Shown here: positions 52,610 through 56,560 of the stretch, piece by piece | How positions within the stretch are numbered: the stretch's first letter is position 1 | Layout: every line of letters starts with the position of its first letter | Assembly: GCA_934183355.1 (NCBI GenBank) | Contig: CAKPST010000002.1 | Span: forward strand, 1 to 64,000 | Direction: 5' to 3' | From: an uncultured Prevotella sp. | GTDB taxonomy: Bacteria > Bacteroidota > Bacteroidia > Bacteroidales > Bacteroidaceae | DNA length: 64,000 bases | Made by a program: the position numbers and the translations under genes | The notes under the pieces: generated by a model | Told to the model about the DNA's origin: nothing | The model's input: only the letters and a program-made list of their open reading frames with translations | Databases searched by the model: none

Positions 52610-54601
52610 ATGCAAACAAACAAACGATTTCTTATGTCTGCGACGTGGATTGTGTCTCTGCATGCGCTCACGCTCGCTTTTCTGTCGCTCTTCCGCATCG
52701 TCGAGTTCGTTGCGTTGCGCGGCATGGTAGCCGACTCGTCGGCAAGTGTTTTGCCTGCCTTTGTGCGTGGCGTGTGGTTTGACAACGTGATAGCTTGCTA
52801 CATCACTATCCTACCCCTCGTCGTGACATTGCTGGCAGCGGTATTCGGACTGGCACCCAAGGCATCGCGCAAGGCGACGGTGTGGTGGTATGGCATTCTG
52901 GGCTCGATTGCATTCATGGCATCGGCTGCTAACATACCCTACTTTGCCTATTTCTTCAAGAACATCAACTCCTCGATATTCGAATGGTTTGGCTATGCCG
53001 GAACAACGGCTGGCATGGTGACAGGCGAGAAATCCTACTTCCTGTACATTGCCCTGTTCTTTGCCTGTGTAGCTGGCTATGTATATATTATGGTGAGAAT
53101 GCGCCGACGTTTCGACAGCATTATCTCTAAGACTAAAACCTGTGGCTCGGCTGCCTGTGGCAATATCAAACGCAACATACTACAAGGCTCGATACGCTTT
53201 ATTGCACTGGCACTGACAGCTGGCCTGTGTGTGTTTGGCATACGTGGCAGGACAGGATACAACCCTATCAAGATTTCACAGGCATACTATTGCGACGACG
53301 CTTTCCTCAATCAGCTCGGCATCAACCCGGCATTCAACCTACTTACGTCGGCACTCGACGACATGCGCAAGGAAAACCGCGAACTCCACCTTATGCCCTA
53401 CCCCACTGCCATCAGCCTGGCACGCCAAAGTTTGGGCATAACAGGCAAATGCGACTCGCTACATGTGCTGAGAAGATATGTGGATAACTCAGTGGATAAC
53501 TCGGTAAAAGGCAGTGTATCAGCTAATAAGAAGAATGTGGTGGTGATACTGATGGAGTCGATGTCAGCCAACTTCATGCAGACATTCGGACAGGGCGAAC
53601 GACTCACCCCTACCCTCGACTCACTCTACAACAACTCACTGGCATTCATGAACTGCTACTCAGCCGGAATACACACCAATCACGGCATGACAGCATCGCT
53701 CTACTCGTTCCCGGCTCTGATGTTCCGCAACCTGATGAAGGGAACTGTGACACCTCACCGCGACGGAATACCAACCGTATTGAAGCAACAGGGCTACCAC
53801 AATATGTTCTTCATGACTCACGAGGCGCAGTATGACAACATGAAGGCGTTCTTCGCAACTAACGGATATGACGACATATATGCACAGGAGAATTATCCTA
53901 AGGAGGAAGTGGTCAACTCGTTCGGAGTATCCGACCACTTCCTGTTTGGCTACGCTCTCGACAAGATAAACAGGCAAGCGGCAACAGGAAAGCCCTTCCT
54001 CGCTACCCTACTCACCATAAGCAACCATCCACCATATATTATACCAGAGTGGTTTAAGCCCAAATCGAAGGAACCTGAGACCCAGATTGTGGAATATGCC
54101 GACTGGGCTATAGGCGACTTCCTCAGACAGGCACGCCAACAGGAGTGGTACAGGAACACCATATTCGTAATAATGGCAGACCACGGAAAGATAGTTGGCA
54201 AGGTGAACGGAATACTTCCGCAATCGTACAACCATATACCGCTGATAATGTTCGGACCGGGCATAAAGACGGGCAAGAACGAACAGCTTGCTACACAGGT
54301 GGACGTGATGCCTACACTGCTGTCGATGCTCGGCATAAGCTACGAATATGACGGATTTGGAGTGGACCTGACAAGCCAAGAACGACCACTCGTGTTCTAC
54401 TCTGCCGACAACCAGATTGTGGCTCGCTCGCACGATTTGTGCTATATCTATGAGCCTAAGACCGACCGATCGTTCTACTATCGCACCACTCCTGGATGGG
54501 GACTCAAAGAGACTGAAGCCACACAGGAGTTCCAACCACTCAAACAATATGTATTCTCTATGATACAGACAGCGCAATATATGCTCAAACAACAAAACTA
54601 A
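52610..54601 (+). CDS. LTA-synthase-like membrane sulfatase
   Basis: The 663-residue protein has about five hydrophobic helices (about 10-190) and an extracytoplasmic alkaline-phosphatase/sulfatase fold from about 290. The metal-binding VVVILMESMSANFM motif (Glu) is near 293, the nucleophile Thr or Ser is in HTNHGMTASLYS, and IMADHGKIVG supplies Asp-His. It resembles LtaS and the phosphoglycerol transferase family, which in Gram-negatives modifies periplasmic glucans or lipids. The DnaA-box-rich region starts right after it. The start may instead be 52634. Confidence 0.87.
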   Translation: MQTNKRFLMSATWIVSLHALTLAFLSLFRIVEFVALRGMVADSSASVLPAFVRGVWFDNVIACYITILPLVVTLLAAVFGLAPKASRKATVWWYGILGSIAFMASAANIPYFAYFFKNINSSIFEWFGYAGTTAGMVTGEKSYFLYIALFFACVAGYVYIMVRMRRRFDSIISKTKTCGSAACGNIKRNILQGSIRFIALALTAGLCVFGIRGRTGYNPIKISQAYYCDDAFLNQLGINPAFNLLTSALDDMRKENRELHLMPYPTAISLARQSLGITGKCDSLHVLRRYVDNSVDNSVKGSVSANKKNVVVILMESMSANFMQTFGQGERLTPTLDSLYNNSLAFMNCYSAGIHTNHGMTASLYSFPALMFRNLMKGTVTPHRDGIPTVLKQQGYHNMFFMTHEAQYDNMKAFFATNGYDDIYAQENYPKEEVVNSFGVSDHFLFGYALDKINRQAATGKPFLATLLTISNHPPYIIPEWFKPKSKEPETQIVEYADWAIGDFLRQARQQEWYRNTIFVIMADHGKIVGKVNGILPQSYNHIPLIMFGPGIKTGKNEQLATQVDVMPTLLSMLGISYEYDGFGVDLTSQERPLVFYSADNQIVARSHDLCYIYEPKTDRSFYYRTTPGWGLKETEATQEFQPLKQYVFSMIQTAQYMLKQQN

Positions 54602-54640
54602 CAGGCATACACAACATTATAAACACTACTGATTACGCAG

Positions 54641-55374
54641 TTATCCGCAAGTTATCAACAAAACTGTGGATAACTGCGTAATTCGTTGATAATCAACCTG
54701 TAGTTATCCACAAGAACCTGTTTATACGTCTATGACAGCATTGTTTATAAACAACGGTTGCTAATAACTACAAAACAAATATAGGAGGGTAGGGCATCCC
54801 TGTCCTGTCTACTCTGAATATATCATCAAGTTGCAGAGTGGATATGGTAGGTATGCCCTACCCTCCTATATTTATTTGCATCAAAACAAGCCTGTTGGCT
54901 TATAAATAGGCTAGTTTTGTGATGAACAGGTTATTACATACTATAACAAATAACAAACCGGAGGTACACTTAACAGCATATACAGGCAGTAGACGAATAC
55001 GACATCCTGTAGCCTGTATTGTTCGATATATATCCTGTGAGTTATCCACAGGGTTGTGGATAACTCACTAAAACCTGTTGAAAACATGTGGATAACCCTG
55101 TTGATAACTTGCCACTTATCAACAGGCAAACAGGAGTAAAGGGGCAGATGTGGATAACTAACATGCTTATTAAATAGTTATACAAAAGTTTTCCACAATT
55201 TATGAAAGGAAAAAGATATAAACTTATTAACTTTGCATGTGTTTCACATAAAGTGTGGATAAGTGACATATCTCGCTCATTATCAGCAGGAAGATATTAA
55301 ACAAACCTGTTGACAACTTGCCTGTGAATGTGGATAACGCAAAAGGCGGCTAAAACAGCCAAAAGTTATCAACA
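54641..55374. other. Candidate chromosomal replication origin (oriC), DnaA-box cluster
   Basis: A 969-bp gap without genes. Perfect TTATCCACA boxes: plus strand at 54704 and 55042, minus strand at 54665, 55055, 55087, 55149, 55254 and 55329 (nine bp each). Near-matches: TTATCCGCA at 54641, TTATCAACA at 54652, 55099 (minus), 55116 and 55366. AT-rich DNA follows at about 55375-55440. No dnaA or dnaN gene is adjacent; genes are an LTA-synthase-like gene and nadA. The cluster far exceeds chance. Confidence 0.8.
54777..54873. repeat. 21-bp inverted repeat within the candidate oriC
   Basis: Arms 54777-54797 and 54853-54873 are perfectly complementary over 21 bp around a 55-nt loop, which contains a shorter inner pairing (TACTCTG with CAGAGTG). 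It lies between the first and second groups of DnaA boxes. Confidence 0.8.
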
Positions 55375-55570
55375 TATTAACACTACATCATACTCATCAT
55401 ATTCTTTTTCTTTAAGAAAAGAAATAAAAAGATATATATAAGATGACGTTGACAACTGGGGCTAAACATGGTGTTCGAAAAGTAGAATAGGAGTTTTAGA
55501 ACACTAAACAAAAAGCGAGAAAAATGGAACAACAACAAAAAGACAGGAAATAACATTAAAACAATAAGCT
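55375..55570. other. AT-rich flank of the candidate oriC
   Basis: No gene or DnaA box. The first part (55375-55440) is very A/T-rich and could be the DNA unwinding element. A small hairpin (GTGTTC with GAACAC) lies at about 55472-55503 before nadA. Confidence 0.45.
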
Positions 55571-56560
55571 ATGAAAAAGGAGTGGATTGAAAAGGGTTAT
55601 GTCGACGAACAGGTCGATAAGTCATTGGATCTGAAACAGGAGATACGCCGACTCTGCAAGGAGAAGGGTGCAATAATACTTGCCCATTATTACACAGTGG
55701 GTGACATACAGGATATAGCCGACTTTGTGGGCGACTCACTGGCACTGGCACGCAAGGCTGCCGAGACTGATGCCAAGGTGATGGTGATGTGTGGTGTTCA
55801 CTTTATGGCTGAGACCTGTAAGCTCCTGTCGCCTGACAAGACGGTGCTATGTCCCGACTTGAACGCTGGATGCTCGCTTGCCGACTCATGTCGTGCCGAG
55901 GACCTGAAGAAGTTTAAGGAGGAGCATCCTGGATATAAGGTAGTGAGCTATGTCAACACAACGGCTGCTGTGAAGGCTCTGACCGACTGTGTCGTGACAT
56001 CTGGCAACGCCGAGAAGGTGATGGCATCGTTCCCGAAGGACGAGAAGATAATCTTTGGTCCCGACTACAACCTCGGCAACTACATCAACAGCGTGTCGGG
56101 CAGAAACATGCTCCTGTGGAATGGTGGATGTCATGTACACGAAAAGTTCTCGGTAGAGGCTATAATGAAGCTCAAACAGGAACACCCTGAGGCGGTGGTG
56201 ATGGCTCACCTCGAATGCAAGGCTCCTGTTCTTGCAGCAGCCGACATCAAGGGCTCGACAGCAACCATGCTCAATTATGCCAAGGCTCATCCCGAAACCA
56301 AGGAATATATCATCGCTACTGAGGCTGGAATATTGCACGAACTGGAGCGCGGTTGTCCCGGCGTGAAGTTCTATCCTGTTCCGCCAGAAGTGTCAGAGGG
56401 TGGAGTAGGGTGCTCATGCAACGAGTGTGAGTATATGAAGATGAACACACTTGAGAAGATATACAACACACTGAAGTACGAATGGCCCTCTGTAGAGGTT
56501 GACCCCGAGATAGCACGCGAGGCTGTCAAGCCTATAGAAAAGATGCTGTCACTGTCGTAG
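55571..56560 (+). CDS. nadA: Quinolinate synthase A
   Basis: NadA condenses iminoaspartate with dihydroxyacetone phosphate to quinolinate in NAD synthesis. The 329-residue protein has the conserved start IILAHYYTVGDIQDIADFVGDS (near 35-56), and the three Cys that bind its [4Fe-4S] cluster are visible in VMCGVHFMAE, HLECKAPV and GCSCNECEYMKMN. Length is in the normal range. No nadB or nadC gene is beside it. It follows the DnaA-box cluster. Confidence 0.96.
   Translation: MKKEWIEKGYVDEQVDKSLDLKQEIRRLCKEKGAIILAHYYTVGDIQDIADFVGDSLALARKAAETDAKVMVMCGVHFMAETCKLLSPDKTVLCPDLNAGCSLADSCRAEDLKKFKEEHPGYKVVSYVNTTAAVKALTDCVVTSGNAEKVMASFPKDEKIIFGPDYNLGNYINSVSGRNMLLWNGGCHVHEKFSVEAIMKLKQEHPEAVVMAHLECKAPVLAAADIKGSTATMLNYAKAHPETKEYIIATEAGILHELERGCPGVKFYPVPPEVSEGGVGCSCNECEYMKMNTLEKIYNTLKYEWPSVEVDPEIAREAVKPIEKMLSLS

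Follow-up and report, generated by a model that had tools for sequence, protein, structure and literature searches.

A candidate chromosomal replication origin beside nadA in a Prevotella/Segatella-type bacterium, with a conserved 27-bp block

Bacteria of the genera Prevotella and Segatella abound in the gut and the rumen, and metagenome growth-rate estimates depend on the position of the origin. In Escherichia coli, oriC has several DnaA boxes in one intergenic region, including a TGTGGATAA box beside an AT-rich element; the DNA unwinding element (DUE) adjoins box R1. In the Bacillus subtilis-type BUS, tandem boxes are followed by a 12-bp spacer, at least three NAN trios and then AT-rich DNA, and the published model for such origins is that DnaA on the boxes opens the trio-bearing, AT-rich DNA (PMC8287927). 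The published search rule takes a box with up to two mismatches, a spacer of 0–16 bp and three or more trios (PMC8287927). For the first chromosome of Prevotella intermedia OMA14, Ori-Finder placed oriC at 1,498,452–1,498,927, which is not near dnaA (PMC4755523). Little was found in the literature on the biochemistry of Bacteroidetes origins.

Here, a 64-kb stretch of DNA (the window) is shown to contain a region, 54641–55444, which is very probably the chromosomal oriC of a Prevotella/Segatella-type bacterium, as assigned computationally. Its conserved core spans about 55040–55444. Like the E. coli origin, the region has several boxes in one intergenic region and an AT-rich element next to an equally oriented TGTGGATAA box, and it differs from that origin in its box layout, its phased array and the presence of a 27-bp block. 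It shares with the BUS the order of tandem boxes, 12-bp spacer, trios and AT-rich DNA, but plain T-rich sequence makes up part of the nine NTN triplets found in the window, the trio runs of relatives are often short and dnaA is unlinked. It resembles the predicted oriC of P. intermedia OMA14 in having multiple DnaA boxes within a few hundred base pairs away from dnaA and, on the minimum within the window and the rough agreement in relatives, probably a GC-skew transition; the accessible text of that account gives no block, unwinding module or gene neighbour, and neither nadA nor quinolinate occurs in it (PMC4755523). An oriC away from dnaA is thus known in this phylum; less expected is that the 27-bp block is retained when the neighbouring genes differ. 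The literature was not found to describe this block or an origin linked to nadA, which is weak evidence of absence as the search was made without the letters of the block, the DoriC tables and most subscription papers.

The region lies in an intergenic stretch, 54602–55570, with a GC content of 0.35 and a longest stop-free run of 84 codons. There is no ORF of 100 aa in this stretch, in agreement with the original prediction, which was made from the sequence of the window and described a dense DnaA-box cluster in gene-free DNA. The predicted neighbours, an LTA-synthase-like sulfatase gene and nadA, are confirmed by Pfam as a sulfatase-domain gene and nadA, with MutS farther to the left. The closest relatives of the NadA protein are found in Segatella copri (best identity 90%) and other Prevotella/Segatella genomes. 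The absence of dnaA nearby was also correctly foreseen, as a tblastn search with the DnaA of S. baroniae returned no DnaA homologue in the window at E≤1. In the 734 bp from 54641 to 55374 there are 14 DnaA boxes, out of 28 with at most one mismatch in the entire window. Eight of the 14 are perfect, exactly as had been claimed, and six carry one mismatch, where five near-matches had been counted. Past 55042, the minus-strand majority that had been described is found for six of nine boxes. Shuffling the 64 kb 100 times gave a mean of 14.8 boxes (sd 4.0, largest 25) versus the 28 observed, and elsewhere in the window the maximum is two boxes in any 500 bp. The coordinates of these and the remaining features are collected in Table 1.

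Table 1. Positions in the 64-kb window of the candidate origin, its parts and adjacent features
Feature	Position	Strand	Details
Perfect TTATCCACA boxes	54665, 54704, 55042, 55055, 55087, 55149, 55254, 55329		
One-mismatch boxes	54641, 54652, 55099, 55116, 55189, 55366		
Left accessory box group	54641..54712		Four boxes: 54641 (+), 54652 (+), 54665 (-, perfect), 54704 (+, perfect)
Inverted repeat	54773..54877		Arms 54773-54816 and 54834-54877, 44 nt each, 17-nt loop, 84% complementary
Left box array of conserved core	55042..55124		55042 (+), 55055 (-), 55087 (-), 55099 (-), 55116 (+)
Boxes just left of block	55149..55197		55149 (-, perfect); 55189 (+), TTTTCCACA
Conserved block of candidate origin	55211..55237	+	AAAAGATATAAACTTATTAACTTTGCA; at most 6 mismatches in 74/81 sequences
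Candidate sigma-ABfr -7 element towards nadA	55228..55235	+	TAnnTTTG (TAACTTTG); inside block
Fixed-distance perfect box	55254..55262	-	+37 from TATAAACTT core of block
Perfect box	55329..55337	-	Box scan
Tandem boxes of unwinding module	55366..55383	+	TTATCAACA, then weak TATTAACAC
Nine consecutive NTN triplets (3'-NAN-5' DnaA-trios on other strand)	55387..55413	+	12-bp spacer after 55366 box
AT-rich stretch, candidate DNA unwinding element	55395..55444		Nearest-neighbour energy
nadA (quinolinate synthase), downstream neighbour	55571..56560	+	Pfam NadA, E 8.2e-117

The box cluster is conserved upstream of nadA in related bacteria. Among the best 80 of 158 confirmed nadA loci, 74 have at least three boxes in the upstream 1.2 kb or the available part of it. 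Six have no upstream boxes (L009, L011, L049, L051, L057 and L058), with L057 and L058 each offering less than 100 bp of upstream sequence. When the window and the 80 loci are taken together, the two 200-bp bins covering the 400 bp before nadA contain a mean of 3.54 and 1.62 boxes with at most one mismatch (78 and 79 sequences, respectively), and the remaining bins listed, from -6 kb to +3 kb, contain no more than 0.39. When 24 of the 81 sequences are aligned, the following parts are fixed: the left box array, a TTTTCCAC column to the left of the block (present in the 75% consensus), the 27-bp block, a box, tandem box-like sequences, ATCAT and an AT-rich tail. The geometry is evident in the 68 sequences with an exact block, which include the window. 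In 65 of these, a minus-strand box is positioned +33 to +38 from the TATAAACTT core, and in 47, minus-strand boxes 11–12 bp apart are present to the left of the block, with three in a row in 27. The boxes are biased to the minus strand on both sides of the block (180/247 on the left and 119/147 on the right). The window fits this shared plan, with the boxes at 55087 and 55099 separated by 12 bp and that at 55254 placed at +37, and it has approximately 120 extra bp before nadA.

At the right edge, the layout is DnaA box, spacer, DnaA-trio and AT-rich DNA. By the BUS-type rule, the window has TTATCAACA at 55366, a 12-bp spacer and nine trios, and a run of this length was seen in 0 of 500 single-base shuffles. 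Trio runs exceed those of shuffles at the 0.05 level in 32 of 71 sequences; as the sequences are related, this count and those that follow are not independent. In 66 aligned sequences, the frequency of T is 0.70 in the trio phase versus 0.44 and 0.43 in the other phases; 41 of these have at least three triplets from the same anchor and the other 25 have only the two that are fixed by the anchor. Two box-like sequences are seen, by inspection and without a count, at the place of 55366–55383 in the alignment of relatives. When the 64 kb are ranked for stability in non-overlapping 50-bp windows, the adjoining stretch, 55395–55444, is third from the bottom, and the AT-rich region ranks fifth with 30-bp windows and sixth with 100-bp windows. 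The AT-rich flank that had been predicted is present and extends past its claimed end, to about 55444.

Observed here are the boxes in a conserved geometry, a run of trios, low stability and a rough agreement of the skew in relatives, from which DnaA binding, opening and firing would be expected at this region. DnaA would bind to the left, 12-bp phased array and to the fixed box next to the block. Starting at the tandem boxes (55366–55383), it would extend onto the trios at 55387–55413, the AT-rich stretch before nadA would be opened and the helicase would be loaded there.

Genome-wide tests were run on relatives and not on the genome of the window itself. The cumulative G-C curve of the window reaches its minimum at 54892, within the cluster. 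In 2-kb steps, the skew is below zero between 16 and 48 kb, of mixed sign up to 54 kb and above zero from there to 64 kb, but it is also positive over the first 16 kb. In relatives, the skew was taken from 20 spaced stretches per chromosome, giving steps of about 125–176 kb, and the best half/half step was sought. The predicted coincidence of the skew minimum with the cluster was found in two of four evenly sampled relatives. In S. baroniae (G001), the best step is in the interval holding the locus and the GC and AT skews agree; at a fine scale, there is a local sign change approximately 10 kb from the cluster, on the side of nadA. In G090, the best GC step is at the block and the AT step is one off (0.50 versus 0.49). 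The prediction missed by one step in G012, where the best GC step is adjacent (1.26 versus 1.22 at the block) and the AT step is at the block, and it failed in G126, which has weak skew and where the best GC position misses the block by three steps (about 0.4 Mb; 0.63 versus 0.45) and the AT position by three in the opposite direction. In P. lacticifex (G002), which was less evenly sampled and also has weak skew, the sign changes near 310 kb and the block is at 313.7 kb. Averaged over the window and the 80 loci, the profile is negative on the left, at -0.03 to -0.06 in the 1-kb bins, and beyond the first kilobase only +0.015 to -0.028 on the nadA side. The skew supports the region and not an exact base.

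The density of boxes was compared across the same five relatives. For the locus, the count of near boxes per 500 bp is 5 in S. baroniae, 9 in P. lacticifex, 7 in G012, 8 in G090 and 7 in G126. In 117 other stretches of these genomes (116 of 20 kb and one of 10 kb, or roughly 10–20% of each genome), there are never more than three per 500 bp, so that equally dense clusters, which would have spoken against the original prediction, were not found in this sample. As the S. baroniae locus has one perfect box only, and perfect boxes do not stand out in that genome (55 versus 46 for the reversed control), the one-mismatch density was used instead of the perfect-box count. The second contig of S. baroniae B14 (1.14 Mb, L133–L144) has no clear skew step and no cluster exceeding three per 500 bp in twelve 20-kb stretches; the origin of the second chromosome of P. 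intermedia is likewise reported as unclear (PMC4755523).

A dnaA-adjacent origin was rejected, as dnaA is 0.37–1.1 Mb from the block in seven relatives. The distance is about 368 kb in S. baroniae, 592–841 kb in G012, G090 and G126, 786 kb in G110, 978 kb in G227 and 1.08 Mb in P. lacticifex; in G062, dnaA and the block are on different contigs. This is not surprising because, according to DoriC, Bacteroidetes commonly have their oriC far from dnaA (PMC4755523).

The 27-bp block is located about 230–410 bp upstream of nadA in 73 of the 81 sequences and 2.1 kb away in L051. With up to six mismatches allowed, it was not found upstream of nadA in L009, L011, L013, L014 and L049, and L057 and L058 have too little upstream DNA to hold it; the column counts include one chance row, from L057. 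Within the block, TATAAACTT is conserved upstream of the -7 motif. The variable positions are the first six, positions 16–17 and the two n positions of TAnnTTTG, and the fixed positions of this motif hardly vary. The block core, TATAAACTTNNTANNTTTGCA, has exact matches in 107 of 200 genus genomes, against 0 of 200 for the reversed control. It occurs once in 104 of the 107, twice in G062 and G076, and three times in G109. No match was found in 81 of the 200 genomes by blastn and in 93 by exact pattern. As the core is rare in the wider family group, being present with at most two mismatches in 6 of 61 genomes (exact in 4), the block looks like a trait of the clade. For seven genomes with odd or missing blocks, the core was found with at most one mismatch in four, and not in those of L013, L014 and L046. 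In L013 and L014, near boxes are scattered before nadA with no recognisable block; on this sequence evidence, the origin plan of these two is diverged or moved.

The block was also used by itself to retrieve loci, independent of the gene that follows. At least three near boxes are present in 29 of 30 such loci, compared with a background of 0.31 for the same length, and the fixed minus-strand box (+33 to +38) is present in 28. The downstream gene is nadA in 21 of the loci, DUF3108 in seven (L273, L275, L276, L280, L281, L282 and L284) and neither in two; nrdB was detected upstream in L280–L282. In G062, the block–box unit is between the gene for the ribonucleotide reductase small chain and DUF3108, and a different contig carries the sole NadA match of this genome (59% identity). 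The unit in G282, the genome of L011, is flanked by genes matching those of G062. Boxes are absent upstream of nadA in the genomes of L009 and L011, where the block, with one mismatch in the genome of L009, is found elsewhere with 7 and 10 near boxes, respectively. In the wider family, NadA was found in 68 of 81 genomes, and 26 of the 30 such loci that were fetched have no block and at most three near boxes per 500 bp. Judging from these comparisons of loci, the block–box unit is a part of the candidate origin and not of nadA, and the predicted origins of the clade occur in at least two gene contexts (nadA and DUF3108). L269, one of the two block-fetched loci with neither gene downstream, is one of the two core copies in G076 and has no boxes around it. 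The extra core copies in G076 (L269) and G109 may be ordinary promoters of similar sequence.

The reading as a chromosomal origin, which the original prediction had put forward and which the box density, the conserved geometry and the near-invariant block in many relatives support, has to be weighed against three others. Dense boxes alone would fit equally well with a DnaA-titration or reservoir site (datA-/DARS-like), where the boxes bind DnaA and replication starts elsewhere, and the skew gives no exact base and disagrees in G126. Such a site is improbable, because, of the four evenly sampled relatives, two have a skew that agrees with this place and a third misses it by one step, the cumulative minimum of the window is within the cluster, a trio run with an AT-rich stretch is expected of an origin and no denser cluster occurs in the 117 sampled stretches. 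That the region is instead a DnaA-dependent control region of nadA is suggested by the similar distance of nadA downstream in 73 of 81 sequences and by the -7 promoter motif in the block. This is highly improbable and was rejected, as the unit precedes DUF3108 in 7 of 30 loci, is away from nadA and retains its boxes in the genomes of L009 and L011, whose nadA is without them, and is lacking from most of the wider-family NadA loci described above. Least credible of all is the origin of a plasmid or integrative element captured in the window, for which nothing speaks beyond the origin-like look. Here, there were no matches among 72,556 plasmid records at E 1e-5, the locus has an orthologous place in many genomes, two of which are long chromosome records, and the neighbours are ordinary chromosomal genes.

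Within the origin reading, what the block itself does is a separate matter. TAnnTTTG is the consensus of the Bacteroidetes sigma-ABfr -7 promoter element (PMC7366714), and a promoter built into the origin, with its activity predicted from sequence features, has somewhat less than an even chance of being correct. This is favoured by the -7 consensus, by the variable n positions and by the near-constant start of the co-oriented downstream protein match (nadA or DUF3108), between +229 and +284 in 27 of 28 loci and at +499 in one. The block would then fire a rightward transcript that crosses the unwinding region and enters the following gene, which is nadA or, in some relatives, DUF3108, and a transcript across the origin would couple transcription to initiation. 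The alternative, that the block is no promoter and serves instead as a second melting site or as the binding site of a lineage-specific initiation factor, also has somewhat less than an even chance. Consistent with this, TATAAACTT is conserved upstream of the -7 motif where no -33 element is seen by eye, and the block is AT-rich and beside the fixed box, much as the E. coli DUE adjoins R1. Against a melting or factor site are the variation of the n positions next to nearly constant ones (other block positions vary too) and the common direction and distance of the downstream matches.

There is about an even chance that the broader proposal holds, namely that origins in this clade carry a lineage-specific, 27-bp promoter-like element which is near-fixed to a DnaA box, is the origin's own, stays across neighbours (nadA, or DUF3108 beside nrdB) and either drives an origin-crossing transcript or recruits an initiation factor. 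If true, the block would be a one-line sequence marker of the origin in draft genomes and metagenomes of the clade. As it is near-invariant and usually present once per genome, it would place oriC in drafts where the skew is weak and dnaA is no guide. In addition, a conserved promoter-like element inside an origin would make the role of transcription at oriC testable.

Two features of the window, the left group at 54641–54712 and the inverted repeat at 54773–54877, are outside the shared plan. The left group looks particular to the window, as relatives have few boxes so far from nadA. The inverted repeat is located between this group and the conserved core and is predicted to form a hairpin of -30.6 kcal/mol (z -9.3). 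A cruciform had been noted here and is present, with arms of 44 nt in place of the claimed 21 bp. The exact 14-nt core of the repeat is in 0 of 260 loci, and the repeat was not kept among the elements of the conserved origin; possible identities are a terminator and a small mobile repeat. Farther out, about 1.1 kb to the left of the cluster, the sulfatase ORF contains two minus-strand boxes at 53479–53499, one perfect and one near, which are 12 bp apart.
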